Assembly (NCBI RefSeq): GCF_020531985.1
Contig: NZ_JAJAVQ010000004.1
Location: forward strand, 248,001-312,000
Length of the DNA: 64,000 bases
From: Rheinheimera aquimaris
Lineage (GTDB): Bacteria > Pseudomonadota > Gammaproteobacteria > Enterobacterales > Alteromonadaceae
Direction: 5' to 3'
The notes under the pieces were generated by a model. It ran no database searches. It saw only the letters and a list, made by a program, of their open reading frames with translations, and was not told the DNA's origin. A program made the translations under genes and the position numbers. Of this stretch, positions 4,784-44,377 are shown piece by piece. Numbering within the stretch: the stretch's first letter is position 1; the number at the start of each line of letters is the position of its first letter.

Positions 4784-4878
4784 GCATTTTCACTCTTTAC
4801 CACCTTATTCCCGGCTGTTATAGCAAACTTCTGCTTCGACGTCAGTGTTTACTCATACCACTTAGGCAGAAATTTCTT

Positions 4879-4884: not shown

Positions 4885-4936
4885 AGCGCGCCTGTTTCAG
4901 GTTCCATCGTTGTTCAACCCACGGGAAAAAAAGCCT

Positions 4937-9766: not shown

Positions 9767-9776
9767 CGAGGGCGCG

Positions 9777-12550: not shown

Positions 12551-12585
12551 AACCTGCCGGGCTCATATCGTCTGTTTAACAGTGT

Positions 12586-12617
12586 AAAACAAAAAGGCGA
12601 CTCTGATGCAGTCGCCT
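12586..12617 (-). terminator. Terminator of the ompW-like gene
   Basis: Eight-base stem AGGCGACT / AGTCGCCT. On the minus strand it is followed by TTTTTGTTTT. It lies 28 bases past the stop of the OmpW gene and upstream of the hydrolase/GNAT gene. Confidence 0.85.
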
Positions 12618-12645
12618 TTAGTCTTAAGCTTGATTCATTGCTGGG

Positions 12646-13344
12646 TTATAAGGTCCAGCGCAGGCCAATCATCGCAACATAGGGGTCGATATCAACATCA
12701 ACACTCTGGATAGTGTTGCCGTTAACCTGCACCCTGCCCGTTGTATCGATGTCCATTTTACTGATCATCAGGTGTAAGCCCAGGGTGTCGTTGAACTTGA
12801 TGTTTACACCTGCCTGTAACGCCAGACCGAAAGAGTCTTTAAGTTTTAAACCAACAACATCGTTCGTGCCTGTTACTCCGAGGCTATCAAGCGCGCCTTC
12901 GAGTTGACCATCAATTTGCTCATCAAAGAATACCGTGTAGTTTAGGCCTACACCAATAAATGGATCGAACGTTTGGTGTTGTGGCATAAAGTGATACTGA
13001 GCCAGCAAAGTAGGTGGCAGATGTTTGGTGCTACCCACTTTCAACCCATCAATAGCTGAACCTTTTACATTAATATCATGGCTGAATGGCGTAGCCGCAA
13101 TCAGTTGTACTGACCAGTTAGGGGTGAACTTATAATCAAGCGTCAGGCCAAGCTGAGTATTGCTGTTTACCCCAACAGTGGTGGAGCCTGCGGGCAAACC
13201 TGCTACCTGCTCGACAACATTTAAATTGCTGCTGCTGTCATCAGGTGCAACCGTAATAGCACCGACGTTTATGCCAAATTCGGCTGAGGCGGGGGCTGCG
13301 GCGAGTAAAGTGGCCAGAGTGAGCGCGGATAAAACAGTTTTCAT
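12646..13344 (-). CDS. ompW: OmpW-family outer membrane protein
   Basis: 232 residues. I start at the ATG giving MKTVLSALTLATLLAAAPASA, a clean signal peptide with Ala-x-Ala cleavage, preceded by GGAG at six bases; the upstream in-frame GTG lies inside the ribosome-binding site. The mature protein has the OmpW pattern of an eight-stranded beta-barrel. Recognisable blocks are LGLTLDYKFTPNWSVQLIAATPFSHDI, split here by its turns, LPPTLLAQYHF, FIGVGLNYTVFFDE and a C-terminal GLRWTL ending in the barrel signature. Family members form narrow hydrophobic channels in the outer membrane. Monocistronic with its own terminator. Confidence 0.9.
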   Translation of the reverse strand: MKTVLSALTLATLLAAAPASAEFGINVGAITVAPDDSSSNLNVVEQVAGLPAGSTTVGVNSNTQLGLTLDYKFTPNWSVQLIAATPFSHDINVKGSAIDGLKVGSTKHLPPTLLAQYHFMPQHQTFDPFIGVGLNYTVFFDEQIDGQLEGALDSLGVTGTNDVVGLKLKDSFGLALQAGVNIKFNDTLGLHLMISKMDIDTTGRVQVNGNTIQSVDVDIDPYVAMIGLRWTL

Positions 13345-13415
13345 AATAATCTCCACAGATAAGGTCTGAGGTGATTTTCCGCTTTTGAGGCTTAAGAATA
13401 TTGGCCTGGATCAAT

Positions 13416-13448
13416 AAAAAAACGGGGCTGTGATAACTTCAGCCCCGT
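13416..13448 (-). terminator. Terminator of the DUF3300 gene
   Basis: Nine-base stem ACGGGGCTG / CAGCCCCGT with a nine-base loop. On the minus strand it is followed by seven T. Located 29 bases after the DUF3300 stop. Confidence 0.9.
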
Positions 13449-13476
13449 AATTTGTTTTATATCAACAAAATGACGT

Positions 13477-14868
13477 TTATTCGATATGCCGGGCCGGCCG
13501 TTCACGCTGCTGTACCATGCTCTCTTTTGTCGACGCCCGGTACTCACGCGCTGGCTGACGCTGCTGCATCTGCTGCGGCTGGCGCTGTTGCACTGTTGGT
13601 TGCTGATACTGCCTTGGTTGTTGCTGCACCTGGCGTTGCGATTCCACCTTGTGTTGCGACCGTTCAGACCGTTGCTGAGACTGGCGCTGGCGCAACTGTT
13701 CAGTGCTGACAACCTGATTTGAGCGTTCGCGCTGCTGGTTGTACTGACGCTGTTCTTTCAGTTGCTGCTGAACCTGCTGTGGCTGTCGATCATTACGCTG
13801 AATATCAGTAGTACGCAGCCGCTGCTCACGTTGCTGGCGCAAAGCCTCGTTGTGCTGACGCGGATTTCTGTCGTCGCTTTGCCACTGGCGGTTTGTTAAG
13901 CGTATTTGCTCTGCTGTTTTGCGTTGATACTGGTTATGCTGTTCACGCTGATCAGACGTCACTCTACGCTGATGTACAACCTTGCCCTGGCTTTCACGTG
14001 TTGGCTGGCGGTAGCCGTAACCTGCATTGTATTCGCGGTTTAAGCGCTCACGGCGGTAATGCACACCGCGGCGGTGCTCTGTATTGTGCTGCCAGCGGCG
14101 GGCATCAACATAATGTTTATGCCGTTTAGGATAATAGCGTGGCGGGGTGTGATAATAGTGGTGATGCACTACGACATGACGGTGGCGCCAGTCAAAGATA
14201 CCGAAGTAAAACCAAGGCCTTACATTGACGCTGACGCCCCAGTAAAACGGGCTGTTACGGTAGTACACACCTGCGGTATGCCAATACACCGGCGGGTATG
14301 ACGGCCACCACCAGTCGCCGTATACCACGCGGGTATCATACACTGGCACATATACTACTTCTTTCCGGGCCGGCTCAATGACGATCACGTCGCGCTCGCG
14401 CTCAACCACCACATGCTGATTATCGTTCAGTGAACCATTGGCATAGGCTTTCTCTCGTAACGTTTGTATACTTGCAAGTACCTGGGTTTCATCGGCCAAA
14501 AAAGCTTCGCCCAGCTGTTCTGTCCAGTCTAAATCAGTACTTAAACGCTCAATTAATTGCGGAAAAGCGACCAGTGCTTTGACGCTGGGATCCCAGCTTT
14601 TACTTTCGACGGCGCGCACAGCCTCTTCACCTGTTATGCCGGGGTTCGCTTTTACCCAGCGCGATGCCTGAACTATCTCAAGCGGATAGGTGGCGGCAAT
14701 CAGCACATGCGTCAGCACCGTATCCGGATAAAGGGCAACAGGCGCCAGCATTTGGTCTAACTCAGCCTGAGACAGCGCATCGTCTTCTGCCAGCACGGTT
14801 GTCGCTGTGCCGAGTAAAAGTACGGCGGCACTTAGCAACCGGCCAACTTGCAGCATCAGATATTTCAT
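13477..14868 (-). CDS. DUF3300 protein with Gln/Arg-rich tail
   Basis: 463 residues. N-terminal signal peptide (to about TTVLA-EDD). Residues about 30-250 form the DUF3300 domain, recognisable by LDQMLAPVALYPDTVLTHVL and KEVVYVPVYDTRVVYGDWWWP, and by a Trp/Tyr/His-rich stretch. From about residue 250 the protein is low-complexity and very rich in Gln, Arg and His, with repeated QQRE, RQPQQ and QQR blocks, and no secretion-stop. It is probably periplasmic or surface-associated. The biochemical role of DUF3300 is not known. GGAGG precedes the ATG. Its promoter region holds the perfect palindrome TATACAGTGTATA listed separately. Confidence 0.85.
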   Translation of the reverse strand: MKYLMLQVGRLLSAAVLLLGTATTVLAEDDALSQAELDQMLAPVALYPDTVLTHVLIAATYPLEIVQASRWVKANPGITGEEAVRAVESKSWDPSVKALVAFPQLIERLSTDLDWTEQLGEAFLADETQVLASIQTLREKAYANGSLNDNQHVVVERERDVIVIEPARKEVVYVPVYDTRVVYGDWWWPSYPPVYWHTAGVYYRNSPFYWGVSVNVRPWFYFGIFDWRHRHVVVHHHYYHTPPRYYPKRHKHYVDARRWQHNTEHRRGVHYRRERLNREYNAGYGYRQPTRESQGKVVHQRRVTSDQREQHNQYQRKTAEQIRLTNRQWQSDDRNPRQHNEALRQQREQRLRTTDIQRNDRQPQQVQQQLKEQRQYNQQRERSNQVVSTEQLRQRQSQQRSERSQHKVESQRQVQQQPRQYQQPTVQQRQPQQMQQRQPAREYRASTKESMVQQRERPARHIE

Positions 14869-31217: not shown

Positions 31218-32252
31218 ATGTCTCTGCAATGGGCTTTGCCAGCTTTAACGCTTCCTTATTTATGTCATGGCCGTTTTTTGTTGCGCTGCGCTGTTCTGGC
31301 GCAGGCCGTAGCAGTGGTTCTGGCATTCGCGCCCGGAATACATACAGATTTATGGCAGCGCCTTGGCTTAATCAGTTTATTTGTACATTGGGTAGCATTG
31401 CTTAGCACCTTGCTGCTGTGTTTGCTGCGCCACCGGCTGAACCGTTTATCGCCAGCCAGAATACTGCTTAGCTGCACCGGTATTTTCTTGTCATTGACTG
31501 TCATTGTCAGTTGCCTGGCCTTTACGGCTTTTGCCGGCAAGTCTGCTCAGTTTAGTCAGTCTTTGCCAACTTTTGTCTTAGGCAATGCTATGGTAGCGCT
31601 TATTGTTGCGATAATTGCTATGCAGTTTTTTATTATGCACAGCGAGCGTAGTTTGCAACTGCAGGCGCAGAGTAATGCCGAGTTCAACGCCTTGCAGGCG
31701 CGTATTCAACCACATTTTTTGTTTAACAGCCTGAACACTGCAGCTGAACTCATTCATGTTGACCCGAAAGCCGCAGAGCAAGCTTTATTGGATTTATCAG
31801 CATTGTTCCGCGCCGCTTTGCATGCCGGCGAAGTGGTGCTATTGGCCGATGAACTGACGCTGGCTAAACAGTATTTGTCTCTGGAGCAATGGCGGTTGGG
31901 AGAGCGCATGCAGGTACAGTGGTTGCAGCCGGAGAATATCGCTGATATTAAAGTTCCTGCGTTGACAATACAGCCCTTGCTTGAGAATGCTGTTCGTCAC
32001 GGTATTGAAAGCTGCACGCAAAATGCCATTCTTAAAATCGATGTTGTGCAAACCAACCAGTCGGTCAGTATTATTGTTACTAACCCCTTTACTGTGCAAA
32101 ACCGGGTACGCAAAAGTAATGGTATTGCACTTAACAATATTCGTCAGCGGTTACAGCTACATTATGGTGCGGCGGCACAACTAACACAAAGTGCTGTAGA
32201 AGGTGTGTTTCGTGTAAAACTGGTGCTGCCAGTGTCAGGACAGGTAAGTTAA
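31218..32252 (+). CDS. LytS/AlgZ(FimS)-type sensor histidine kinase
   Basis: 344 residues. The N-terminal 150 residues hold about four membrane segments with no extended sensor loop. The kinase core has QARIQPHFLFNSLNTAAELI (phospho-acceptor His166) and an ATPase lid region (VPALTIQPLLENAVRHGIE and NGIALNNIRQRLQLHYG). This is the His_kinase (LytS/YehU) family. AlgZ/FimS of Pseudomonas, the pilus regulator, is of this family. The ATG of the response regulator overlaps its stop by one base. The position immediately before the minor pilin operon supports the AlgZ-like reading. Confidence 0.85.
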   Translation: MSLQWALPALTLPYLCHGRFLLRCAVLAQAVAVVLAFAPGIHTDLWQRLGLISLFVHWVALLSTLLLCLLRHRLNRLSPARILLSCTGIFLSLTVIVSCLAFTAFAGKSAQFSQSLPTFVLGNAMVALIVAIIAMQFFIMHSERSLQLQAQSNAEFNALQARIQPHFLFNSLNTAAELIHVDPKAAEQALLDLSALFRAALHAGEVVLLADELTLAKQYLSLEQWRLGERMQVQWLQPENIADIKVPALTIQPLLENAVRHGIESCTQNAILKIDVVQTNQSVSIIVTNPFTVQNRVRKSNGIALNNIRQRLQLHYGAAAQLTQSAVEGVFRVKLVLPVSGQVS

Positions 32253-32968
32253 TGCGTATTTTAATTGTTGATGATGAGCCTTTAGCAAGATCCCGCCTTA
32301 AACGACTGCTTGGACAGTTTTCTGAGCATCAGTGTGTAGCGGAGGCTGAAAACGCATCAGAGGCTATAGAGCAGATATACAAGCTTCAGCCGGACCTGGT
32401 TTTGCTGGATATCGCCATGCCGGGCCAGGATGGCATCAGCCTTGGCTGTCAGATCAGGCAGTTACCGGTGCCGCCGGCAGTGGTTTTTGTTACCGCGCAT
32501 CCACAACACGCGCTGGATGCTTATCAGGCCAGTCCTGCTGATTACTTATTAAAGCCGGTATCAGCCGATGGCCTGGCGTTGGCATTGAAAAAGGTTGGCG
32601 CCCTGACGCGGGCTCATCTTGATAAAACCGGCAACAACGAGGTGCTAATCAGTTATCAGCTTGGTAACCAGCAGCGCCAGACAAAGCTCAGTGACGTGTA
32701 TTACTTTTGCGCAGACCAAAAGTATACCCGCATGGTTTTTGCCAAAGGCTCGGCCTTGCTGGATTTTAGCTTAACGCAGCTTGAGCAGCATTACCCCCAG
32801 ATGTTGCTGAGAATACACCGGAATTGCCTGATTAACCGTGATCGGTTCCGGTCATTATTAACGCTGCCGGGTGGCAGTCACTATATCGTCCTGGATGGCA
32901 TCGACGAAAAGCTCGAAGTCAGCCGTCGTGCGTTACCTGCAGTAAAACAGCAACTCGCGCTGGATTAA
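32252..32968 (+). CDS. LytTR response regulator, AlgR-like
   Basis: 238 residues. Receiver domain (1-120): VDDEPLARSRLKRLL at the start, phospho-acceptor Asp53 in LLDIAMPGQDG, and Lys in LLKPV. The C-terminal LytTR DNA-binding domain (about 140-235) shows YFCADQKYTRMVFAKGSALLDFSL (split by its turns) and LLRIHRNCLINRDRF. AlgR in Pseudomonas aeruginosa activates the fimU-pilVWXY1Y2E operon. Here the homologous operon starts 112 bases downstream on the same strand, with a degenerate AlgR-type site between. Confidence 0.87.
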   Translation: MRILIVDDEPLARSRLKRLLGQFSEHQCVAEAENASEAIEQIYKLQPDLVLLDIAMPGQDGISLGCQIRQLPVPPAVVFVTAHPQHALDAYQASPADYLLKPVSADGLALALKKVGALTRAHLDKTGNNEVLISYQLGNQQRQTKLSDVYYFCADQKYTRMVFAKGSALLDFSLTQLEQHYPQMLLRIHRNCLINRDRFRSLLTLPGGSHYIVLDGIDEKLEVSRRALPAVKQQLALD

Positions 32969-33061: not shown

Positions 33062-33080
33062 ATTAAATTCAGGAATGTAT

Positions 33081-33674
33081 ATGAGCAGTTGTCCGAAACC
33101 AGCTAATAACTCTGCGGGTTTTACGTTAGTAGAGTTAATGGTCACTGTAGTGGTGTTATCTATCGTAATGCTGGTCGCGGTACCGTCGTTTAATTCTTTA
33201 GTACAGGGAAATCGTTTGACCGGGCAGGTAAATCAGTTCGTTGCTGCTTTGAATTTGGCGAAGGCGGAAGCTGTAAAGCGAAACCAAGCAGTGTTGTTTT
33301 GTCATTCGGCTGATGAGCTGAGTTGCTCGGAGCCACCCTCTGGCGGCTGGCAGGGGTGGATAGTCGGCGTGGCTCAGGCCAGACCAAACCCGGGTATTCA
33401 AGCTGGGAGTGTCATTGCTTCTGGGATGTTGTTGTCTGAACGTATCCAAATTATATCTGGTAACCAGATTACTCAATCTGATGGTGAAGTTCGTTTTCTT
33501 CCTCAGGGGTTAGTCCGTAATTCTGATGGAGCTCCTTTAAATTCTGCTCTTCGGGTATGTTTGAATATTAGCGATGAGATAGCAATCCGGGACATAGGCA
33601 TAAGCTCTGGTGGGCAGGTTGATGTTACAAATAACACAAGTACAAGCTGTACATTACCGCCGGAGGTTCAGTAA
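33081..33674 (+). CDS. fimT: Minor pilin FimT/FimU/GspH type
   Basis: 197 residues from the ATG spaced six bases after AGGA; a second ATG six bases earlier abuts that site. A short basic leader ends in Gly, and the prepilin cleavage motif AG-FTLVELMVTVVVL gives a type III N-terminal helix with the essential Glu at +5. The body has the GspH/FimT fold with a C-terminal Cys pair (RVCLNIS and TSCTLPP). It is processed by PilD and incorporated at the pilus tip or base as a primer. First gene of the AlgR-adjacent pilin operon. Confidence 0.88.
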   Translation: MSSCPKPANNSAGFTLVELMVTVVVLSIVMLVAVPSFNSLVQGNRLTGQVNQFVAALNLAKAEAVKRNQAVLFCHSADELSCSEPPSGGWQGWIVGVAQARPNPGIQAGSVIASGMLLSERIQIISGNQITQSDGEVRFLPQGLVRNSDGAPLNSALRVCLNISDEIAIRDIGISSGGQVDVTNNTSTSCTLPPEVQ

Positions 33675-34078
33675 TGAAGAATATATCAATGAAAGGACAA
33701 AAAGGCGTGACCTTGCTGGAAGTATTGATCTCAGTGCTGGTGCTGGCGATTGGTATTCTTGGGGTAGCAGGTTTACAGTCTGTTAGTTTGCGAAGTACAC
33801 ATACTGCACATGAGAGAGCAATGGCGGTGGTACTGACAGAAACACTATTTGAAGTTATGAGAGTTGAAGCAAATGCTGCAAGGGCCGGTGCATTCAATAT
33901 GTCGTGTGAGAGCCCGGTCGAGGGTACAGAGCAGTGGTTTACCGATGTCAGAAACGCGACTGATGGTGAAACATGTGCGGAAGTAGCATGGAACAATGGT
34001 ATTTATCGGGTCACGATTGACTGGTCAGATAAACGTATGAATTCAAACTCTGTTGTCGTAATGGAGATGCGGCCGTGA
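33674..34078 (+). CDS. pilV: Minor pilin PilV
   Basis: 134 residues, start overlapping the fimT stop (TAATG). Prepilin motif QKG-VTLLEVLISVLVLAIGILGVAGLQ with Glu at +5, then the PilV-type SLRSTHTAHERAMAV region. It is a priming minor pilin of the core complex that also includes PilW, PilX and PilY1. Two cysteines (MSCES and ETCAEV) may form a disulfide. Its stop overlaps the next gene as GTGA. Confidence 0.88.
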   Translation: MKNISMKGQKGVTLLEVLISVLVLAIGILGVAGLQSVSLRSTHTAHERAMAVVLTETLFEVMRVEANAARAGAFNMSCESPVEGTEQWFTDVRNATDGETCAEVAWNNGIYRVTIDWSDKRMNSNSVVVMEMRP

Positions 34079-35004
34079 GAATGATTATACGAGTTAAAGG
34101 TTTTTCTCTGGTTGAATTAATGATTGCCATGGTGCTGGGGCTGGTTCTGCTGGGGGGAGTGATTGGTGTATTTTTATCAAATCAAAATACAGCACGTGCA
34201 ACAACAGATCTGTCAAACCTGCAAAACAGTGTTCGTTTAACATTTCAATTACTGTCACAAGACATTCGCAGTGCAGGTTTTGCTGGTTGTAATAATTCTC
34301 CTCGCGTCGTCAGCATTATTGAAGTGGGCGGTGCTACGCCGCAGTGGGCAAACTGGGTTGGTGGAATACAAGGTCTTGCTGCTGATGCACAAGGCAATGA
34401 ATCCATAAGATTAATGTACGGTAGTGGCGTTAGTAACTCAGTTGTTACACATGCTCCACCGGTATTTACGTTAAGTGCCGCACCGAATCTCGCTGCAGGC
34501 GATATCGCTATGATATGCGACGATACACTCAGTTCTATATTTCAAGTGTCTGCTGTGGGCGCTACTACTCTCAGTCATGCAGCATCCGGTGCTGGGACAC
34601 TAAACTGTACTGCCGATCTTGGTATCGATTTCCCTTTTGTGTGCGCTAATCCTCGTGGACGTTTTTTTGCCGCAGACTCAATGATCATGCGATTTGAGTC
34701 AGTTCGTTGGTTTGTTGCGCCAAGCTTAAGAAATAACGCTGTTAATGCATTATTTCGCGAATCTTTGGTTGCAGGGCAGGTTGTTGCGGAGGAAGTGCTT
34801 GCGGGGGTCGCCTCACTAAATTTTGCTTATCAGCTAGGTGGGCAAGCTTTTGGCCCGGTGCCATTTGATCCTGCGTTAGATATGGGCAATGTGGTTGCGG
34901 TTAATGTCACCGTGGTGCTTGACCAAGCTGCATTCACCAGCATTGAGCTAAGCGACGAGCAAAGAACGATAGAGTTCTTAGCCGCTGCTAGAAATAGGTT
35001 GTGA
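34075..35004 (+). CDS. pilW: Minor pilin PilW
   Basis: 309 residues. The GTG overlapping the pilV stop has GGAG eight bases before it; an ATG two codons downstream is the alternative. The prepilin motif is KG-FSLVELMIAMVLGLVLLGGVIGVF, followed by the PilW-specific long extracellular body with TTDLSNLQNSVRLTFQLLSQDIRSAGFAGC (in two parts). The C-terminal part includes the IEFLAAARN end. PilW belongs to the priming complex with PilV and PilX. Confidence 0.9.
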   Translation: MRMIIRVKGFSLVELMIAMVLGLVLLGGVIGVFLSNQNTARATTDLSNLQNSVRLTFQLLSQDIRSAGFAGCNNSPRVVSIIEVGGATPQWANWVGGIQGLAADAQGNESIRLMYGSGVSNSVVTHAPPVFTLSAAPNLAAGDIAMICDDTLSSIFQVSAVGATTLSHAASGAGTLNCTADLGIDFPFVCANPRGRFFAADSMIMRFESVRWFVAPSLRNNAVNALFRESLVAGQVVAEEVLAGVASLNFAYQLGGQAFGPVPFDPALDMGNVVAVNVTVVLDQAAFTSIELSDEQRTIEFLAAARNRL

Positions 35005-35010
35005 GGAAAA

Positions 35011-35523
35011 ATGAGAAGTCTAAGATCTCAACATGGTGTAGCTCTTATCGTCAGTTTGTTGTTGCTACTGGCAATTACGATACTGACGATCTCTAGTATG
35101 CAACGCTCCACTACGCAGGAGCGTATGACTTCAAATCTGTATGAGAGGCAACTGGCAGTACAACAAATTGAGTCAGCGCTTCGAGCCGGAGAGCAACTGT
35201 TAACGGGGTTGATGCCAAACCCAGCTGCATCAGCTGGTGTGCTGCCGGGTTTTTATGGCTTGCCGGTAGTTGGTGAAGTCGACCGTTGGACAAATGCGGC
35301 AACGGTTTGGGTTGATGCTCCGGTAATTAATCAGAATATGGCGCCGCAAGCACAATACATTGTGGAATATATGGGAGATTGGCCATCACCGGCTAAACCT
35401 GACTGTGCCAGGGCAACCACTATCGAAACAGATTGTTTGTCACCCACTTTTCGTATTACCGCCCGTTCAGTACCTGCTAACGACAGGGCTCTGGTAGTAA
35501 TGCAATCTATTTGGCGTTTGTAA
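35011..35523 (+). CDS. pilX: Minor pilin PilX
   Basis: 170 residues, AGGA before the ATG. N-terminal hydrophobic helix HG-VALIVSLLLLLAITILTIS with a Gly cleavage point. The +5 position is not Glu, as is normal for PilX, which is thought to sit distally without needing that contact. The segment MQRSTTQERMTSNLYERQ is typical of PilX. Cysteines in KPDCARATTIETDC. Confidence 0.9.
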   Translation: MRSLRSQHGVALIVSLLLLLAITILTISSMQRSTTQERMTSNLYERQLAVQQIESALRAGEQLLTGLMPNPAASAGVLPGFYGLPVVGEVDRWTNAATVWVDAPVINQNMAPQAQYIVEYMGDWPSPAKPDCARATTIETDCLSPTFRITARSVPANDRALVVMQSIWRL

Positions 35524-35539
35524 GCGCGGGAGTATTAAC

Positions 35540-38500
35540 ATGTCGAACGGAAATAATTGGTTTTCCAAACTGATCGTTTTTTCATCCGGGCTTTATTTTG
35601 GTGTGGCTTGCGGGGTTGCAGCAGCAGATTTGACTATACCAGATGTACCACTGCAAACAGGTAGTGATGTGCCGGTAAACTTAATGTTCGTGCTGGACGA
35701 CTCGGGTTCAATGGCCAGAAGCTACTTGCCTGATGGCATCAAGGGCGTCTGCGCAGATGGGTCAGATACGTCGAAACGAGCTCTCGGTAGGTCACCTGAT
35801 TATAACAAAGCGTATTTCAATCCTGCGGAAACATATGTTGTGCCACCGCAAGCTAATGGAAATCCTTTTAGCACACCAACTTTTACTTCGGCATGGAAGG
35901 ATGGTTACGCGAAGAGTGGATCGGTTAATTTAAAAACGAGCTTCAGAGCGACTTGGGAAAACTCGAGTGACTACTGTGGTTCTTCAGGTGAAGCTGATTA
36001 CTATTTATATGATAAAACGCAATGTACGAGTAACGACCCGGAAGACTACCGGTGTTATAAGCGCTACAAAGTAGCCGACCAAAGTACAACAATTCAGAAT
36101 AACTTCGCCATCTGGTATAGCTATTATCGAGACAGAAAAATGGCCGCAAGGGCCGGTATCGGTCGGGCATTTTCAACCTTGCCAGAATCGATGCGGGTTG
36201 GCTATGGGGCGATTAACAACAATCCGGTTAAGAGGGGGGTTCTGGCTTTTGCTGGAACACCAAGGTCAAACTTTTTTACTTGGTTGTATGGTGAAGGTGC
36301 CAGCGGTTCTACCCCACTACGTGGCGCCTTAAAAAAAGTTGGTGATTATTATAAAACAGATGAGCCCTATCTGACTGTGCCGACTGACGATAATAGTGGC
36401 TTGGTATCTTGCCGGCAGAACTTTGCAATATTGATGAGTGATGGTGGCTGGAATGAGTCAACTTCGCCTGGTGTAGGTAATAGTGATGGCGACGGCTACT
36501 CTAATACACTGGCTGATGTGGCTTATGAATATTGGAAAAAAGATTTAAGAGCTGATTTAAAAGATAATGTCCCTACGCCAACCGCCAGTGATGCGGACTG
36601 GCAGCATATGGTGACTTACACAGTTGGTCTGGGTGTTGAAGGTGACTTGGTATACAACACTGTTAAAAACTGGGAGCCAAATGCTTCCGGATGGACCAAT
36701 CCCGGATGTAGTACCTGCGCAGATGATCCTGGTAAGGTCGACGATTTTATTCATGCTGCGGTAAACGGCAAAGGCGGCTTTTTCAGTGCCAAAAGTCCTA
36801 CAGAATTTGCTACTGAGCTGACCGACACCCTGAAAAATCTGCAGCTAAGAACGGCTTCTGCAACGAACCTATCTGCTACTACCACTTCTTTGCAAGAAGA
36901 TAATAGTGTGTTTCAGGCATCTTTTAATACCAAAAGCTGGACTGGCGATTTAGTCAGTAGGGACGTTGATGACTTAACCAAGGTGCAGTGGAGCGCGAAC
37001 TTTCCGGTTTGGAACACGCGTAAGATCTATACCTCAAGAAATAATACGATGATTCCTTTTGCATGGGCGCAGTTAAACGGTTCGGAGCAAACCGTATTAG
37101 GTAGTGCTGATGTCGTAGACTATTTACGTGGAAACCGGAGTAAGGAAAAAACGACTGCTAACCCAGCAGGAATATTCCGCGAGAGGGTTTCGTTACTCGG
37201 TGATATCGCTCACTCATCTCCGCTGTATGTGGCTGCACCACAAAATCGTAATTATCAGCGGTATAACTGGACAGGTGCGTCAAGTTATGTGAAGTTTCTG
37301 AGCGATCATAAAAACAGGGCGCCCGTTATTTATATAGGCGCAAATGATGGCATGCTGCATGGCTTCAACGCTGATGCTGGCAGCGCCACGAAAGGCCAGG
37401 AAACTTTCGCTTATGTTCCGCGTAAGTTTGTCTCTTCAGGTTCTAAGTTAGCGACCTTCGCCAGTCTGGATTACGAACATAAGTTTTTTGTTGATGGCTC
37501 TCCTACTGTTAACGATGTATATATCAATGGTGCCTGGCGCAGTGTATTGATAACGACTTTAGGTCGAGGGGGCAATAGCATTATAGCGCTGGATGTGACA
37601 AATCCTGCTGATGTTAAACTACTATGGGATTTGACTGTACCGGAAATTGGCCTTGTGACGTCAAAACCTGTTATTACCAGATTGAACGGTGATCGGTGGG
37701 CTGCAGTTTTACCTTATGGTTACAACAACAGTACCGGGAAAAATGGCTTGCTGGTAATTGATATTGAAAAAGCTGCCTCTGAACCAGTAGTTAAAATAGA
37801 AACTCCAGCGTCATCGAATGGGCTAGGTCAGATTGAAGGATGGGACGCAAATGGTAACGGCAACACAGATTGGTTTTTTGCCGGTGATCTGAACGGCAAT
37901 ATCTGGAAGTTTGATCTGTCAGGAGCTTCAACATCGTCTTGGAAAGTTGATTATGGTAATACTCCGTTATTTATCGCGAAAGATAAATCTGGTAAAGCAC
38001 AGCCGATTACAGGTGGATTAACACTAAGCAGTCACCCTGAAACAGCTCAGTTGTGGGTATTCTTCGGTACCGGTAAGTTCCTCGAAAGCGGTGATAGCAT
38101 CAATTCAGATACCCAAAGTTGGTATGGAATTACCGACGGCAGTTTGATAGGTTCCCGCTCTCAACTAGTAGACCGAACAATGACGAATGTCAGCTACACG
38201 AATCCCGATACTGGAGAGGTGCGTGAAGGTAGAAGTGTTCCTATCGCTGGTGTAAATGATTTGAATGGTAAGCGTGGCTGGGTAATGGATCTGGTTGATG
38301 ACCGTGAGCGGATAACATCAAAACCAAGGTTGGTAGGCTCAAATCTTGTTATGAATACCATTATCCCAGATGTAGACCTGTGTAACCCACTTGGCGACGG
38401 CTGGATTATGGCGATAGACCCATTCTCTGGTGGGCGGCTTAAATATCATTTCTTTGACTTATCGCGAGATGATAAGTTTGAAGATTCAGACGCATTGCCA

Positions 38501-38668
38501 GAGAACGTTGCTGCGAGCGGTGTTAAATTCCAAGGTATGCCTGGTGAACCTGTGTTTGTTGGTGACGAGATGCTGGTTGGCGACTCAAGGGTAGCAATTG
38601 ACAAAGGGCGCGTTAATTTGCAGATAAAACGAGGGCGTTTGTCTTGGCGTGAGGTAATTAATCAATGA
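35540..38668 (+). CDS. pilY1: Pilus tip adhesin PilY1
   Basis: 1042 residues with a signal peptide (cleaved near VAAAD). The N-terminal part carries a von Willebrand factor A domain with MIDAS motif D-x-S-x-S in FVLDDSGSM (Asp53-Ser57). The C-terminal half is the PilY1 beta-propeller (VYIGANDGMLHGFNADAG, GRGGNSIIALDVTNP, AGDLNGNIWKFDLSG). It includes a calcium-loop-like DANGNGNTD starting at residue 769. PilY1 caps the tip with the minor pilins, promotes priming and can sense surfaces. The length is somewhat shorter than the Pseudomonas form (about 1160), and a PilY2 gene is absent. Confidence 0.95.
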   Translation: MSNGNNWFSKLIVFSSGLYFGVACGVAAADLTIPDVPLQTGSDVPVNLMFVLDDSGSMARSYLPDGIKGVCADGSDTSKRALGRSPDYNKAYFNPAETYVVPPQANGNPFSTPTFTSAWKDGYAKSGSVNLKTSFRATWENSSDYCGSSGEADYYLYDKTQCTSNDPEDYRCYKRYKVADQSTTIQNNFAIWYSYYRDRKMAARAGIGRAFSTLPESMRVGYGAINNNPVKRGVLAFAGTPRSNFFTWLYGEGASGSTPLRGALKKVGDYYKTDEPYLTVPTDDNSGLVSCRQNFAILMSDGGWNESTSPGVGNSDGDGYSNTLADVAYEYWKKDLRADLKDNVPTPTASDADWQHMVTYTVGLGVEGDLVYNTVKNWEPNASGWTNPGCSTCADDPGKVDDFIHAAVNGKGGFFSAKSPTEFATELTDTLKNLQLRTASATNLSATTTSLQEDNSVFQASFNTKSWTGDLVSRDVDDLTKVQWSANFPVWNTRKIYTSRNNTMIPFAWAQLNGSEQTVLGSADVVDYLRGNRSKEKTTANPAGIFRERVSLLGDIAHSSPLYVAAPQNRNYQRYNWTGASSYVKFLSDHKNRAPVIYIGANDGMLHGFNADAGSATKGQETFAYVPRKFVSSGSKLATFASLDYEHKFFVDGSPTVNDVYINGAWRSVLITTLGRGGNSIIALDVTNPADVKLLWDLTVPEIGLVTSKPVITRLNGDRWAAVLPYGYNNSTGKNGLLVIDIEKAASEPVVKIETPASSNGLGQIEGWDANGNGNTDWFFAGDLNGNIWKFDLSGASTSSWKVDYGNTPLFIAKDKSGKAQPITGGLTLSSHPETAQLWVFFGTGKFLESGDSINSDTQSWYGITDGSLIGSRSQLVDRTMTNVSYTNPDTGEVREGRSVPIAGVNDLNGKRGWVMDLVDDRERITSKPRLVGSNLVMNTIIPDVDLCNPLGDGWIMAIDPFSGGRLKYHFFDLSRDDKFEDSDALPENVAASGVKFQGMPGEPVFVGDEMLVGDSRVAIDKGRVNLQIKRGRLSWREVINQ

Positions 38669-39090
38669 GTTTCATATCTAATAGAAAAAATGGATTTACC
38701 TTGGTTGAACTTATGATTGCGGTGGCTATAGTTGGTATCCTTGCCGCGATAGCGTTGCCGTCTTATCAGGCGTATGTGATCAGGTCGAATCGGGCCGCAG
38801 CAGCTGCTTGTCTGAACGAATTCGCGCAATTTATGGAGCGTAACTACACCCAGAATATGCGTTATAACCCTGCAGGTTTTGCACTGCCACAGTTGCAATG
38901 CGCGGAGCAACTGTCGGCAAGGTACCAATTTAGCTCGGTTGATGCAGCGCTAGGGCAGCGCACCTATACTTTACAAGCAGTGCCAACAACTCTCCAGCAG
39001 GACGACTGTGGCACTTTGACATTGAATCAAGCCGGACGAAAAGGTGCTAATGGTGGTTTTGACGCGGCAGTAGTGCGGCAATGTTGGTGA
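38665..39090 (+). CDS. pilE: Minor pilin PilE
   Basis: 141 residues, ATGA overlap with the pilY1 stop. Prepilin motif NG-FTLVELMIAVAIVGILAAIALPSYQ with Glu at +5, followed by YVIRSNRAAAAACLNEFAQFMERNY, the typical PilE/PilA-like transition. C-terminal disulfide candidates: QDDCGTLTLNQAGRKG and VVRQCW. It ends the first minor pilin operon, in which each junction except two overlaps. Confidence 0.92.
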   Translation: MSFISNRKNGFTLVELMIAVAIVGILAAIALPSYQAYVIRSNRAAAAACLNEFAQFMERNYTQNMRYNPAGFALPQLQCAEQLSARYQFSSVDAALGQRTYTLQAVPTTLQQDDCGTLTLNQAGRKGANGGFDAAVVRQCW

Positions 39091-39135
39091 TTTTTTAAAT
39101 CCAAATTTGATTTATTGAAATAATGTTGTAACTTT

Positions 39136-39153
39136 AAGGTTAATTTTAACCTT
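39136..39153. repeat. Perfect inverted repeat between the two pilin operons
   Basis: AAGGTTAA-TT-TTAACCTT, 12 bases before the start of the second set. There is no T-run, so it is more like an operator than a terminator. Confidence 0.45.
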
Positions 39154-39165
39154 TGGCATACGGAT

Positions 39166-39657
39166 ATGCGGTTACAACATGGATTTAGCTTAGTCGAAGT
39201 ACTGGTTACTTTACTGATTTTAAAAGTTGGCTTACTTGGTGTCTTAGCTGCGCAGACATTTAGCTTACGCCAGTTGCAGGACGCCATTCAGCGTACTCAG
39301 GCCATAGCATTGAGCCATGGCTTGTTTAGTGAGGTTCGTGCTAATCCGCGTTTGGCAGTGATGCTAGGGCCACAAATAACCCGTCAATCTGAACTTCCTT
39401 CTGATCCCACATGTAATTTTGACCATGCCTGTACAGCCGAACAAGTTGCAGCTTCCCAACTGAATAGTTGGGCGCATAGCCTGCAAACATCAGCTGGCGC
39501 CAGTTTGCTTAACCCGGCTTTTTGTCTGCAACAACAAGCCGGGGCTTTATTGCTTGCGGTAAGTTGGCAGCAACGCGGCGTGATCTCTGCGGCTGTGACG
39601 GGTTGTGAAGCCGCAACAGGGCGCAGTGCTTTTGTCATCCTGGGCGGTGGGCAATAA
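39166..39657 (+). CDS. Second PilV-like minor pilin
   Basis: 163 residues. The leader is short and the prepilin motif is HG-FSLVEVLVTLLILKVGLLGVLAAQTFSLR, with Glu at +5. The PilV-type features (V-G-x-L-G-V-L-A-A-Q, then a helical SLRQLQDAIQRTQAIALSH) are clear, but the body differs from the first PilV and is longer. Four cysteines (DPTCNFDHACTAE, PAFCLQQ, VTGCEAA) are available for two disulfides. First gene of a second set with the same order V-W-X-Y1-E. It has its own intergenic region of 75 bases and so may have its own promoter. Confidence 0.82.
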   Translation: MRLQHGFSLVEVLVTLLILKVGLLGVLAAQTFSLRQLQDAIQRTQAIALSHGLFSEVRANPRLAVMLGPQITRQSELPSDPTCNFDHACTAEQVAASQLNSWAHSLQTSAGASLLNPAFCLQQQAGALLLAVSWQQRGVISAAVTGCEAATGRSAFVILGGGQ

Positions 39658-39659
39658 GC

Positions 39660-40613
39660 ATGAAGCACCACAGTGGGTTTACGTTAACCGAGCTAATGAT
39701 AGCAATGTTGCTGGGCCTTTTATTGATGAGCATGGCAGTAACTGCCTTTAGTGTAGCCAGTCGCTCTGCCCGTCAAGCAAACCAACTGGCAGAGTTGCAG
39801 CAAAATGCGCAATTAGTCATGACGTTATTTCAAAATGAATTGGCGAATGTTGGCTTTTGGGGAGGGCGCTCAGATCCCTTAGCTGCGCTTGCTTTCCCTG
39901 TGCCAGCCGCACCGGCCGGAGATTGTGTTGAGCAACTGCTGGACAGTGGCAGCTTTCCTCAGCCAGCGCAGGATTTTGTCACTTTGTACGCGCAGACAAC
40001 CGGTGCCGGGCGTCAACTGAACTGTATTTCCAACCCGCTACCGCAGACAGAATTATTGCAGCTAAAACGTCTTGTCGGGGCAAAGACTGAGCCGGGCGAG
40101 ATGCGGCAGAACAGGTTTTATCTGGAAACAGACTGGCAGCACAGCAGATTCGTAGACGGCGGCAGCCCCATGCTGAACGAGCGTTATGGATATTTTCCCT
40201 ATCAGCATCTGGTGTTCTATTTGCAGCAGCAACGGGTCGATGGCGCGACTATACCTGTATTGATGCGTAAACGGCTGACAAGAAACCAGGCCGGGAATGC
40301 GGTGATCAGTACTGATTCAGTGCTGGATGGCGTTGAGCGCATGCACTTTGAATTTGGCATAGATAGCGATTTTGATGGCAAGCTGAATTTTAACCTTGCA
40401 ACCAGGCAAATGCCTGCAGAGTTGTGGTCGCAGCGCTCCGGCAGAATCGTGAGCCTTAAGTATCATATACTGTTGCGTGCCCGCGACCCCGATCAGCACT
40501 ATGTTAATCAGCAGCGCTATGACATGGGGATTGAGCAGTTTGTGGCGCCTGGTGACCATTACCGGCGACTACTTATCAGCAGCAGTGTTTATTTTAATAA
40601 TGCAGCGCTGTAG
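39660..40613 (+). CDS. Second PilW-like minor pilin
   Basis: 317 residues, starting two bases after the previous stop. Prepilin motif SG-FTLTELMIAMLLGLLLMSMAVTAF with Glu at +5, then ARQANQLAELQQNAQLVMTLFQNELANVGFWGG (in parts), the PilW signature of a Q-N-A-x-L/R helix ending in G-F-x-G. The remainder, including KRLVGAKTEPGEMRQNR and LLRARDPDQHY, is only weakly like the first PilW. This indicates diverged, not recently duplicated, genes. Confidence 0.84.
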   Translation: MKHHSGFTLTELMIAMLLGLLLMSMAVTAFSVASRSARQANQLAELQQNAQLVMTLFQNELANVGFWGGRSDPLAALAFPVPAAPAGDCVEQLLDSGSFPQPAQDFVTLYAQTTGAGRQLNCISNPLPQTELLQLKRLVGAKTEPGEMRQNRFYLETDWQHSRFVDGGSPMLNERYGYFPYQHLVFYLQQQRVDGATIPVLMRKRLTRNQAGNAVISTDSVLDGVERMHFEFGIDSDFDGKLNFNLATRQMPAELWSQRSGRIVSLKYHILLRARDPDQHYVNQQRYDMGIEQFVAPGDHYRRLLISSSVYFNNAAL

Positions 40614-40622
40614 GAGCACAAT

Positions 40623-40994
40623 ATGACGCAGATGAAGGGGATGGTGCTGGTATTGGCACTGGTGTTTTTACTTGTCATGACATTACTGGTAACGGCCAGT
40701 TTGCTGATCAGCCAGCTCAGCTATAAAGCGGCTTTGGCGGGGCAGCAACAACTAAAGGTCTCTCAGCAAGCATTACAGCAACACTTCACTCAGGCTAACG
40801 CGCTGGCTGATGATAACGCCGAACCAACAGAGGTTATGGCGGACTGCCCGGCTCAGTATGCGGGTTGGTCTGCCGGCGCTTTGCGCTGTGAAGTATTTTA
40901 TCTCAGCACTGATACGTATTCTGACAATCGCCAATTTTACGCGGGTTACAGCAGTATTATGCTGAAACAGCATTTGGCCGTGCAGGATAATTAA
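40623..40994 (+). CDS. Second PilX-like minor pilin
   Basis: 123 residues with AGGAG six bases before the ATG. N-terminal motif KG-MVLVLALVFLLVMTLLVTAS, which again lacks the +5 Glu as in PilX, followed by LLISQLSYKAALAGQQQ. It is shorter than the first PilX (170 residues), so the head domain is reduced. Two cysteines (MADCPAQ, LRCEVF). Position between the PilW-like and PilY1-like genes identifies it as the PilX counterpart. Confidence 0.75.
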   Translation: MTQMKGMVLVLALVFLLVMTLLVTASLLISQLSYKAALAGQQQLKVSQQALQQHFTQANALADDNAEPTEVMADCPAQYAGWSAGALRCEVFYLSTDTYSDNRQFYAGYSSIMLKQHLAVQDN

Positions 40995-40995
40995 T

Positions 40996-42069
40996 ATGAC
41001 ACTGTCCAGATTGATTGCGGTTATCACCCTGTTGTTGCCGGGTATCAGTATTGGCTGTGACTTAAACGAACCGGGGCCGGTCGCGGCAACGTTGCCCTCA
41101 TTGGCTGACGCGCAAAGTACCCGGCAAGTGCTGCTGAGTAATAATGTTGAGCTTCAGGTACCTGATGCAGATGGTGTGTTAAAAATGCACAGTGCCGAAA
41201 GCTTTGCATTACTTGGGCAGATATCAGAGTGGCCAACTTTTTCTGGTCAAATCAGCAGTATAAAAGCGCAGCCAGTGCTGTTAGACCTGGATTACGACGG
41301 GATTACGGATGCAGTCTATGTCGTCGATGTCAGTGGATTACTATGGTTTATCAGATTGAACCGCAGTGGTTTTTCTGAGCCAGTGCTGCTGGCTGATTTC
41401 AGCGAGACAGAGGCGGTGTTCCGCCAACCTTTGCAGCTGGTGCAAGTTTTGGCGCCTGATGGTTTGGGCGCCATGCGGCGGCACACCATGCTGTTAGTTA
41501 CCGGGTCTGCTGCGCAAGGCGATATTCTGCTGGCGGTTAAGCATACTGAACAACGGGACACGCCCTGGCAAGTGACTGATTTAACTGACAGAACTGAGCT
41601 GGATGCTGATGAACCACGCTATGGCATAGCAGAGCAGCTATGGCAGCAAATTCAACAAGGTGGCGGTTGGTACGTAAAGCTTAATCAGCGGGTCATCGCT
41701 AAACCAGAAGTTTATGCTGGCGTAGTGTACCTTACCGGCGCTCAGCCTACTGCCGTCGGTGCAGACTGCTCTTTGACCGATGATGCGCAAAGCCAGTTGC
41801 ACGCTTTTCATCTTCATCATGCAGGCCTGGTCTATAGCAGGCGTAACAGAGATATAACTCAACAGGAGCGGGGCAGTTTGATTTTAACTGAGAATGAGCA
41901 GGGAAGCCTGGTTCTTAGTCTGCAGCATGCCACACAACAGCAAACGCTACTCACTGAGCTGTTGGCTATTGATGCCAGCTGTGCTGATTGTGTAACAGCT
42001 GTTTATCATCAGCCCTTCCCACGTATTCTCAGACTGGCTACTTTTCAGGCTGAGCAGGATGCCCATTAA
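40996..42069 (+). CDS. Short PilY1-like protein without vWA domain, possible lipoprotein
   Basis: 357 residues, directly after the PilX-like gene. Hydrophobic leader followed by ISIGC (Cys21), which fits a permissive lipobox pattern, so surface or periplasmic lipid anchoring is possible. There is no D-x-S-x-S motif and no vWA domain. From about residue 95 it has a PilY1 propeller-like segment: VLLDLDYDGITDAVYVVDVSGLLWFIRL. A Ca-binding-type D-x-D-x-D-G (Asp97, Asp99, Asp101) is followed by the strand pattern D-A-V-Y-V-x-D-x-x-G-x-L-W. In the PilY1 propeller of this window the corresponding stretch is NTDWFFAGDLNGNIWKFD. The identification as a reduced PilY1 rests on this motif and on gene order. 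It is the least certain and most novel member of the set. Confidence 0.65.
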   Translation: MTLSRLIAVITLLLPGISIGCDLNEPGPVAATLPSLADAQSTRQVLLSNNVELQVPDADGVLKMHSAESFALLGQISEWPTFSGQISSIKAQPVLLDLDYDGITDAVYVVDVSGLLWFIRLNRSGFSEPVLLADFSETEAVFRQPLQLVQVLAPDGLGAMRRHTMLLVTGSAAQGDILLAVKHTEQRDTPWQVTDLTDRTELDADEPRYGIAEQLWQQIQQGGGWYVKLNQRVIAKPEVYAGVVYLTGAQPTAVGADCSLTDDAQSQLHAFHLHHAGLVYSRRNRDITQQERGSLILTENEQGSLVLSLQHATQQQTLLTELLAIDASCADCVTAVYHQPFPRILRLATFQAEQDAH

Positions 42070-42474
42070 ATGTTATTTGCGAAGAAATATGCCGGTTTTA
42101 GTCTGATCGAGTTGCTGGTAAGCCTTGCCATATTAGGCATTCTCGCTGCCATATGCTATCCGTCTTATCAGCAACATGTATTGCGAAGTTATCGTTCGCA
42201 AGCCATTACTCAGTTGTTTCAGCTTGCTAACGCACAGGAGCAGTATCTGGCTGATTATGGTAATTATGCTGCAGATTTGCAGGCACTTGGTTTACCTGCA
42301 GCTGGGCTGCGGTATAGGTTTGAGTTGACATTGACCGACAGTCGTCAGGGATATCTGTTGGCGGCGCAGGCACAAGGTTCACAGCGGGCGGATGCAGATT
42401 GTTTACTGTTTACTCTAAACCACATCGGGCAGCGAAATGCCGGACAGCCGCAAAGTCTGCACTGCTGGGAGTAG
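42070..42474 (+). CDS. Second PilE-like minor pilin
   Basis: 134 residues, starting immediately after the PilY1-like stop. Prepilin motif AG-FSLIELLVSLAILGILAAICYPSYQQ with Glu at +5 and an unusual Cys in the helix. The transition VLRSYRSQAITQLFQLANAQEQYLADYGNY is typical of PilE. C-terminal disulfide candidates: ADCLLFTL and LHCWE, with the N-H-I-G-Q-R-N-A-G between them paralleling NQAGRKG in the first PilE. Its stop abuts the stop of the convergent FimT-like gene with no base between. Confidence 0.87.
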   Translation: MLFAKKYAGFSLIELLVSLAILGILAAICYPSYQQHVLRSYRSQAITQLFQLANAQEQYLADYGNYAADLQALGLPAAGLRYRFELTLTDSRQGYLLAAQAQGSQRADADCLLFTLNHIGQRNAGQPQSLHCWE

Positions 42475-42978
42475 TCATTCAGGGCAGGGTGAGGCAATCT
42501 TATTTAACCTGTTTCGACCAGCCTGATTTACTGTAAGGGTATAATGCCATTTCGCATCTTCTTTTCCACAATAGATAAAAGTGCCATTCTCAAAACCATT
42601 CAAACTGCCATCCCGGCGAAATGTAATAGCATCGCGGTTGAATTTTAATTTGTGGGCAGTGCTGACGGAAGGCAACTCTTTGAGTAACTGCGTGCTGGCA
42701 TCAGGATACTGCAATGTCAGCTGCACCGGGGCACTGTGCCATTGATCTGAACACGCTCCGTCAGCCATCGGGCAGACCCTTACTGGTAAGTTGCTGCTTG
42801 TGGCTGCAACGCGGGCATAAGCCAAATGTTGACTAAATTGACGGACATAGGCACTGGCACGTTGTTGGTCAATAAAAGCAGACATAGCCGGTACTGCAGT
42901 GGTGGCAAAAATAACCAGTATCGCCAGCGTCACCATTAATTCTGGAAAGCTGAAACCCTGTGATGATGTTGATGGCAT
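42475..42978 (-). CDS. Second FimT/GspH-like minor pilin, convergent
   Basis: 167 residues from the ATG with AGGA eight bases upstream; the longer frame begins with an in-frame TTG. Prepilin motif QG-FSFPELMVTLAILVIFATTAVPAM with Glu at +5, preceded by a short leader (MPSTSS). The GspH-like body has VRVCPMADGACSD and a C-terminal IYCGKE...CPE pair. It completes the second set (V, W, X, Y1-like, E plus FimT) but is transcribed from the other side, so it is not simply part of that operon. Confidence 0.83.
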   Translation of the reverse strand: MPSTSSQGFSFPELMVTLAILVIFATTAVPAMSAFIDQQRASAYVRQFSQHLAYARVAATSSNLPVRVCPMADGACSDQWHSAPVQLTLQYPDASTQLLKELPSVSTAHKLKFNRDAITFRRDGSLNGFENGTFIYCGKEDAKWHYTLTVNQAGRNRLNKIASPCPE

Positions 42979-43061: not shown

Positions 43062-43889
43062 TTAATCGTAAATAGTGGGAATGGCCTGGCGCTTGTGCTG
43101 CGTTTTCAGATAAATGCCAATCAACTTATCACTAACTTCACTTTCTACCAGTTTACCCTCAAGAAAATCGTCTATTTGCTCGTAAGTCAGACCAAGTGCT
43201 GCTTCATCAGCTTTCTGTGGCGCCATACATTCTAAATCGGCTGTCGGGGTTTTTCCGACCAATACTTCAGGAGCACCAAGGGTTTTGCCAATCAACCGTA
43301 CCTGACGTTTACTTAAACCAAACAATGGCGCCATGTCGCAGGCTCCATCCCCCCATTTAGTGTAAAAGCCAGTGATATTCTCAGCTGAATGATCAGTGCC
43401 CAATACCAAACCGCCGGTTAATGCGGCAATATGGTACTGAATAACCATGCGGGTACGGGCTTTAACATTGCCCTTAGCAAAATCAGCCTGAGCGTCAGAT
43501 GCGGTGGCTAATCCCTGTGCCGCCATAGCACTCCAGGTTGCCTGATGAATTGCATCTGCGCCGGGCTGTACATTGACAGATAGCGCTTTAGAGGGGCGGA
43601 TAAAATCGACTGCCTGTTGTGCTTCCGCCTCGTCTTTTTGGGTAGCATAAGGCAAGCGCACAGCGATAAACTGATAGTCCGCAGAAGTATGGTTTAACTC
43701 TTCGACAGCCAGTTGAGCTAAACGACCACACGTTGTCGAATCGATCCCGCCGCTGATGCCAAGCACAAGCGTTTTGAGGCCTGAAGCTGTCAGCCGTTGT
43801 TTAATAAAGTCTATGCGGCGGCGAATTTCGAACTGTGGGTCTATCTGCGGCAATACCCGCATTTCGGCGATAATCTGTGCTGCGTTCAT
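43062..43889 (-). CDS. nadE: NH3-dependent NAD+ synthetase
   Basis: 275 residues, the same length as E. coli NadE. The PP-loop [12 protein letters not shown] binds the [27 protein letters not shown] is the family C-terminal signature. It converts deamido-NAD to NAD with ammonia and ATP. Single-domain ammonia-dependent form, without a glutaminase domain. Confidence 0.96.
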
Positions 43890-44023
43890 CCTGTTTGGGC
43901 CTCTGCTGAAAATACAGGCCTATCTTACCGTGCTATACCCGTATCAGATCAAGTGATTGTTGGCGATTAACAGCTGAACAGTGCTTAGCCTTGTATTATA
44001 CTGCAGCTTACTGCGCTGCTTAA

Positions 44024-44377
<354 letters not shown>

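Follow-up and report, generated by a model that had tools for sequence, protein, structure and literature searches.

Known minor-pilin sets and the locus in Rheinheimera aquimaris

More than one set of minor pilins and PilY1 per genome is already known from Xylella fastidiosa (PMC9956873) and Myxococcus xanthus (PMC7541494). X. fastidiosa has paralogous sets, with PilE, PilV, PilW and PilX 1-2, PilY1-1/2/3, and FimT1-3; deletions of the sets give opposite phenotypes, and the one FimT with a GRxR motif is a DNA receptor (PMC9956873). In M. xanthus, three clusters serve one pilus machine, cluster 1 or 3 alone is sufficient (PMC7541494), and PilY1.3 was suggested to be horizontally acquired (PMC13190605). 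A GRxR-type motif in FimT is required for DNA binding in Vibrio cholerae and others (PMC12040237, PMC8897410, PMC9956873). FimT DNA receptors occur as orphan genes or beside minor-pilin genes and are common in Alteromonadales (PMC8897410). Here, we describe two adjacent minor-pilin sets in a stretch of 64,000 nucleotides from R. aquimaris ("the window"). The host genome is 4.23 Mb, and its relatives in the genus are named Rheinheimera, Alishewanella, or Arsukibacterium. Our subject is mostly the second set (set 2), which lies directly behind set 1:

33075-39090, forward strand: set 1 (fimT/fimU-pilV-pilW-pilX-pilY1-pilE), an exchanged cassette (family models, distance tests, tree)
39166-39657, forward strand: pilV2, prepilin (TIGR02523, 67.6 bits, cut-off 52.2)
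39660-40613, forward strand: pilW2, prepilin (PF16074, 61.9 bits, cut-off 26)
40623-40994, forward strand: pilX2, prepilin without Glu5 (position and motif; PilX_N, 12.8 bits, below the cut-off of 25.5)
40996-42069, forward strand: pilYs, a PilY1-derived propeller stump with a calcium-type loop (357 amino acids)
42070-42474, forward strand: pilE2, prepilin (ComP_DUS, 62 bits, cut-off 27.3)
42475-42978, reverse strand: fimT/gspH, convergent, with C-terminal GRNR (GspH, PF12019, 50.9 bits, cut-off 21; motif). Coordinates run from the ATG; in the list of open frames, this one starts at TTG, 43008.

The gene order had been read from the sequence in a first-pass annotation as pilV-pilW-pilX-short PilY-pilE with a convergent fimT/gspH, and the models for PilV, PilW, PilE-type pilins, and GspH all score over their cut-offs. 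For PilX2, the position and the missing Glu5 fit the name, and the family model falls short. The same annotation considered set 2 to be the best candidate for an undescribed system. This is too strong: because several sets per genome are known, set 2 is a variant of a known arrangement. What is unusual is the shrunken PilY1, the slot in which cassettes are swapped, and the RNA leader.

Like X. fastidiosa, R. aquimaris has two sets with PilY1 in one genome, but the sets of X. fastidiosa lie in two genome regions and their PilY1s are tip adhesins (PMC9956873), while here the sets are adjacent, and one of them has a PilY stump and an RNA leader. Like M. xanthus, there are several FimU/PilV/PilW/PilX/PilY1 sets for one pilus machine, and one PilY1 has been suggested to be acquired (PMC7541494, PMC13190605); however, each cluster of M. 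xanthus has both a PilY1 and a FimU, whereas the native set here has a propeller stump and a convergent FimT. The competence pilus of V. cholerae also has a minor-pilin tip set (VC0858-VC0861), with a DNA-binding FimT and apparently no PilY1 (PMC12040237); in contrast, set 2 keeps a remnant of PilY1 and a separate, convergent FimT. Finally, the FimT of set 2 resembles the gammaproteobacterial DNA receptors (PMC8897410) in being a prepilin with a GspH/FimT domain and a C-terminal GRxR, but it is only a candidate receptor, which a fold search does not tell apart from FimU. Set 2 appears to be undescribed among the best-ranked literature on pili, minor pilins, or competence in Rheinheimera, Alishewanella, Arsukibacterium, or Alteromonadales, or on truncated PilY1, with most subscription journals outside the coverage of this search.

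Set 2 is of the native type

PilYs is found in all 31 genomes of the genus. In the other 30, the order of the six genes of set 2 and nadE is the same as in the window, so the arrangement is not due to chance. nadE is present in 31/31 loci and glnB in 29/31 (the stretches from L048 and L068 show none). The slot upstream of set 2 is more variable. A canonical set 1 is present in 27 of the 31 loci, counting one (L040) whose stretch begins inside set 1. Three genomes (G002, G007, and G008) instead have a PilE-FimT-PilV-PilW set, without PilY1 and with a PilW of 171-168 amino acids; G002 has a long PilX-like frame as well. ("Vibrio-like," for these PilY1-less sets, is our own label.) R. pleomorphica (G018) has a different set with a divergent PilY1. 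Correspondingly, PF05567 (PilY1) is over its cut-off in 28 of the 31 genomes, and the exceptions are the same three.

We compared protein distances across 25 genomes to those of mutS, which is on another contig in the window's genome and is about 200 kb or more from the locus where the contig is shared. For the six genes of set 2, rho was 0.67-0.82 (Mantel p = 0.001 for each), which is similar to nadE (0.70), while for the six genes of set 1, rho was 0.16-0.28 (p = 0.002-0.122). Against nadE (26 genomes), the values were 0.55-0.81 for set 2 and 0.03-0.32 for set 1. The distances for set-1 genes do agree with those for pilW1 (0.57-0.88), so the set-1 cassette moves largely as a unit. The set 1 closest to the window's is in L053 (mean difference 0.28), yet the nadE of L053 is no closer than the others'. 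(L040, L050, L065, L066, and L069 were left out of the set-1 profiles and the distance tests, and G019 was also left out of the mutS test.)

In related genera, the usual locus has a single set, with the order ileS-lspA-fkpB-ispH-[LytS-LytR]-pilV-pilW-pilX-pilY1-pilE-gspH-nadE-glnB and some variations. In 15 of 24 related loci (two of them from one genome), PilW scores best with the set-2 profile, with a wide margin in 14; the scores with the set-2 and set-1 profiles are, for example, 211 versus 67 bits in L120, but just 44 versus 42 bits in L131. In a tree of PilW (115 rows), a branch with support of 96 has on one side all 26 PilWs from the related loci, 35 from set 2, 7 rows from further relatives, and the slot PilW of R. 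pleomorphica. The other side holds 30 set-1 rows along with PilWs from further afield: 9 from other orders and 7 from different families within the order. (The tree was made with a quick method and rooted at its midpoint; it includes 16 of 26 set-1 rows and 19 of 31 set-2 rows from the genus, and related-locus PilWs of at least 270 amino acids.) Of 295 genomes from the order, 80 matched the PilW2 model and 53 the PilW1 model (E ≤ 1e-15); counting from the printed ranges, matches over at least 280 model positions were PilW2-type in 76 genomes and PilW1-type in 13. In a class-wide sample of 369 genomes, 170 have PilW1-type matches, and the best one outside the genus is in family f159. In a tree of GspH, 18 of 29 proteins from single-set and other family loci group with set 2.

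Across 295 genomes from the family, matches to the PilYs profile with E < 1e-10 are confined to the genus and to two more genera, g45 and g42; weaker ones hit the propeller portion of longer frames, most of which are full PilY1s. We fetched loci for 12 of the 15 g45 genomes with matches and for 4 of the 6 from g42, and all 16 have set 2. In one of them, G138 from g45, set 2 follows ispH; we found neither set 1 nor LytSR in the 14 kb fetched, and the genome has no PF05567 match. Just before its pilV2 is a remnant that resembles, by eye, the last bases of a neighbor's set-1 pilE. The same tail lies beneath a PilY1-less cassette in G244 (also by eye). These scars imply that set 1 was lost or replaced while set 2 was kept. 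So, set 2 does occur without set 1, and the related genera mostly have one native-type set.

Some results weigh against a native set 2. In 9 of the 24 related loci, the set-1 profile gives PilW a slightly higher score; the PilY1 is 1,352-1,406 amino acids in eight of these loci and 396 in the other. (Because open frames were taken from their first start codon, some proteins may be shorter than stated.) In the GspH tree, 11 of the 29 proteins from single-set and other family loci group with set 1 (support 98). In the PilW tree, the set-1 rows on one side of a branch are held together with a support of only 39, so either one or several acquisitions of set 1 would fit. And a weak species signal remains in two genes of set 1 in the mutS test (fimT1, p = 0.029; pilE1, p = 0.002).

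The first-pass annotation had described set 2 as a diverged copy behind the canonical set. The distances, profiles, and tree reverse this: set 2 is the family's resident operon and set 1 is exchangeable. It is very likely that set 2 is the original, vertically inherited minor-pilin set and that set 1 is the newcomer. That the second set did not arise by a recent duplication was correct, as the two sets lie on opposite sides of the PilW tree, which rules out a recent tandem duplication. The proteins had also been said to be alike only in the N-terminal helix. This is right only in part. PilX gives no meaningful alignment, but PilE1 and PilE2 align over 147 columns (33% identity), as do FimT1 and GspH2 over 137 columns (28% identity). 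The alignable columns are 58 for PilV, 68 for PilW, and 110 for PilY (in the propeller). More broadly, the locus is a case in which tip cassettes turn over but a set with a FimT-like gene is retained.

A side observation concerns Rheinheimera sp. D18 (L040 in G012). Its two sets are separated (oriented positions 4682-6946) by a pilV2-like gene that a second copy of the leader precedes, a transposase-like frame that we take by eye to be of the IS66 type, and a gspH-like gene whose product has GRSR.

Set 2 is intact

The prepilin motifs of set 2 had been noted as intact, with the usual exception in PilX, and this holds almost throughout the genus. PilV2, PilE2, and GspH2 have the motif with Glu5 in 31/31 genomes each (in GspH2, it is GFSFPE), and PilX2 lacks Glu5 in 31/31. 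For PilW2, our script found the motif with Glu5 in 29/31, or 30/31 on reading, since L054 has GYSITE. The remaining protein, from L045 (G021), has GFTLTIAMLL without Glu5, a local change that none of its relatives shares. For three pairs of closely related genomes, the ratio of nonsynonymous to synonymous substitution rates (dN/dS) was 0.02-0.31 in set 2 and 0.03-0.21 in set 1. Set 2 is under purifying selection, and its intact frames and motifs and low dN/dS rule out pseudogenes.

The genome seems to have a single machine for type IVa pili: all 11 genomes checked, the window's among them, have exactly one PilM over the cut-off. The only PF05567 protein of the window's genome is in set 1. As for other clusters of N-methyl proteins, those on contigs C15 and C1 (L070 and L072) were rejected as further type IVa sets. 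Read by eye, they are two separate loci that resemble type II secretion by their gene content, with gspE/gspF-like and pseudopilin genes. Cluster C12 was set aside as presumed MSHA from the number and size of its prepilins.

PilYs is a stump of PilY1

PilYs was initially called PilY1-like. No Pfam or NCBIfam model matches it; for PF05567, the best score seen among its orthologs is 15.7 bits (in G028), versus a cut-off of 28.1. Its kinship to PilY1 is supported by profiles, fold, and position. PilYs has the C-terminal propeller fold of PilY1, and homology starts in the propeller; the large N-terminal region, which is vWA-type in many PilY1s, is absent from its 357 amino acids. The calcium motif Dx(D/N)xDGxxD reads DLDYDGITD, the loop aligns with that of PilY1, and 31/31 PilYs proteins of the genus match a slightly looser pattern. 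Outside the genus, g42 has lost the loop, and 5 of the 12 loci from g45 have a degenerate one. We rejected the idea that PilYs is a lipoprotein because the residue before the conserved Cys is too variable in the alignment for the lipobox rule.

Among relatives, the length of PilY falls from about 1,030 to about 280 amino acids, and PilYs is the most divergent protein of set 2 (mean 0.59). Six genomes without PF05567 over the cut-off (G002, G007, G008, G138, G244, and G046) keep PilM, once each and over the cut-off. If these bacteria are piliated, they make pili with PilY1 reduced to part of its propeller. This makes it directly testable which part of PilY1 serves priming and which serves adhesion. 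The last of the six, G046, is from another genus and has a single minor-pilin set (L119, oriented positions 9736-10926) with a PilY of 396 amino acids and no PilY1 over the cut-off, which is probably an independent reduction.

A basic motif in the FimT of set 2

The C-terminus of the set-2 FimT is NQAGRNR, and G[RK]x[RK] is found near the C-terminus in 31/31 genomes of the genus, in 4/4 from g42, and in 5/12 from g45. Three results count against FimT as a DNA receptor specific to set 2. First, the other 7 of the 12 proteins from g45 lack the motif and read GRSQ. Second, 12 of 26 FimT/FimU proteins from set 1 of the genus have it (though not the window's). DNA binding is thus not strictly a property of set 2. 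Third, in a Foldseek search with the model of this protein, FimU ranks first (4ipu/4ipv) and FimT (7QYI) is not among the matches listed, so the name FimT rests on the motif and the orientation. In four loci from genus g18 (L120 and L140-L142), there are two convergent GspH genes, and the one closer to pilE has the motif; set 2 has one GspH.

An RNA leader at the junction of the sets

The spacer between the sets is just 75 bases. Conservation is strong in this spacer and over the first codons of pilV2, but not in the adjoining end of pilE. This region includes:

39123-39180, forward strand: three-way-junction RNA leader of pilV2 (inverted repeats, RNA fold, compensatory changes)
39123-39132/39171-39180: helix P1
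39136-39143/39146-39153: helix P2
39156-39160/39165-39169: helix P3
39107-39134, forward strand: promoter-like block TTGATT-N16-TAACTT upstream of pilV2 (conserved in the first alignment, below; not listed by the consensus scan)

The start codon of pilV2 (39166-39168) is inside P3, and a GGA ends one base upstream, so translation of pilV2 should depend on opening of the fold. The predicted fold has -20.8 kcal/mol and z = -5.0 in the window (z = -4.4 in L058 and -4.8 in L118). Without the P1 arm, it is unremarkable (z = -1.8). Our first alignment has 28 of 39 matched upstream regions, leaving out L045, L064, and nine rows from g45; when these 28 leaders were folded singly, P1 formed in 28, P2 in 26, and P3 in 27. 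A second alignment, which was fitted to the structure, has 30 matches from 53 sources, of which 27 are distinct. In it, 96.4% of paired cells can pair, versus 25-43% with the partners slid, and 22 cells changed on both sides, versus 10.0 in shuffles (0/500 reached this). The number of pairs with two-sided changes (3) and the number of pair types (14) were not above chance (222/500 and 158/500 shuffles). A DNA operator is a less likely explanation because one-sided changes mostly keep G-U pairs. The 3' arm of P1 doubles as coding sequence.

A model of P1 and P3 finds the leader in 25 of the 31 genomes, once in each except for G012, where the second copy precedes the pilV2-like remnant. No leader was found at other places among the candidates scored (144 per genome, of 1,129-2,929). 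The six genomes without a match (G001, G002, G007, G008, G010, and G029) form one branch of the PilW tree. Up to E = 10, Rfam gives three hits, all at chance level and all outside the leader. The minor-pilin operon carries a covarying leader RNA that no Rfam family matches. As for other signals, the scan lists no terminator or consensus promoter at the junction, and it finds fewer of both than in its shuffles. The loop of P3 is A-N-GGA, with N varying over four bases, which by the CsrA consensus would make it at most a candidate CsrA site.

What set 2 might do

The explanation that we prefer, with moderate confidence, is a native minor-pilin operon with a PilY stump, an exchanged adhesive set upstream, and a DNA-catching FimT. 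In this view, the family's native type IVa minor-pilin operon is set 2. In the line of the genus and two sister genera, a set of foreign origin that includes a complete PilY1 adhesin arrived between LytR and pilV2, and this set-1 cassette has been exchanged since. The native PilY1 shed its N-terminal part and was reduced to a propeller stump. PilV2, PilW2, PilX2, and PilE2 would still form, with the stump, a tip and priming complex for the single type IVa pilus machine. As this tip would have no adhesive head, the basic tail of FimT would be free to catch DNA, and the pili primed by set 1 would be the adhesive ones. Set 2 would have a folded leader of its own for translation and would not be bound to follow set 1.

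Parts of this are more secure than others. The native type and vertical descent of set 2, the exchange of set 1, the reduction of PilY, the intact motifs, the purifying selection, and the structure of the leader come from the data above, while the assembly of a tip, the binding of DNA, and the division of labor are inferred. Set 2 is probably a working, adhesin-poor tip set. There is about an even chance that DNA capture would be its main task. The original suggestion of an alternative tip or priming complex survives in that set 2 is an old and intact second set, which could supply a different and possibly DNA-binding tip; it is native, though, and not added. A bolder version seems improbable to us. 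It would divide one pilus between two tips, an adhesive one that is exchangeable and a DNA-capturing one that is protected, with a slot that takes whole foreign cassettes and a stump that is the minimal PilY1 core for priming. The pilV2 leader would insulate the native set: a read-through transcript would include the 5' arm of P1 and lock the start codon, while a transcript from the operon's own promoter-like block would lack the arm and be translated.

The strongest alternative, which we still think unlikely, is that both sets enter one mixed tip. The pilins of set 2 would join the tip helix of set 1, and the stump would be a spacer or a regulator of retraction via its calcium loop. The conservation of that loop in 31/31 PilYs proteins of the genus fits this, and since the window's set 2 has a single GspH while there are two in each of the four g18 loci, set 1 might supply a FimU. 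Yet set 2 persists without set 1 in G138 or with a PilY1-less replacement in G002, G007, G008, and G244, and by the distance tests, the two sets evolve independently.

It is quite improbable that set 2 is a redundant alternative tip for adhesion or motility, with no special link to DNA. M. xanthus provides the precedent, with its three clusters, one machine, and sufficiency of cluster 1 or 3 (PMC7541494) and its seemingly acquired PilY1.3 (PMC13190605), but adhesion by a stump without the N-terminal region of PilY1 would be unusual, and the FimT motif is kept in 31/31 genomes. We can hardly credit a decaying relic, made unnecessary by set 1 and with the shrinkage of PilY1 as its first step: the divergence of PilYs and the range of PilY lengths are what a relic might show, but the frames and motifs are intact, dN/dS is low, the leader covaries, and set 2 is present in every genome of the genus and every fetched g45 and g42 locus, even where set 1 was lost.

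Neighboring genes and additional sets in other genera

The genes on either side of the two sets are:

31218-32968: LytS-type kinase and LytR-type regulator pair, ahead of set 1 (named from sequence)
43062-44377: nadE (reverse strand) and glnB-like gene (forward strand), the constant right-hand neighbors

Neither protein of the LytS/LytR pair has an NCBIfam match over the cut-off. The pair lies ahead of set 1 in the window, and in genus g18 (L120 and L140-L142), it lies directly ahead of the single native set. The locus may therefore have this pair as its native regulator, much as FimS-AlgR regulates the minor pilins in Pseudomonas aeruginosa. An AlgR-like site, CCGTTNGTC, was rejected as a signal: it has 1 match in the window, at 26191, versus 1.15 expected.

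Extra genes at this locus were seen in other genomes. In L133 (G078), from another genus, a second pilV-pilW-pilX-pilE-gspH set without PilY1 lies behind a full native set (oriented positions 11711-14826). L135 (G299) has extra pilins at the same locus. In L141 (G303), one native set has tandem full-length pilY1 genes, at oriented positions 5592 and 9197, that encode proteins of 1,032 and 1,061 amino acids.

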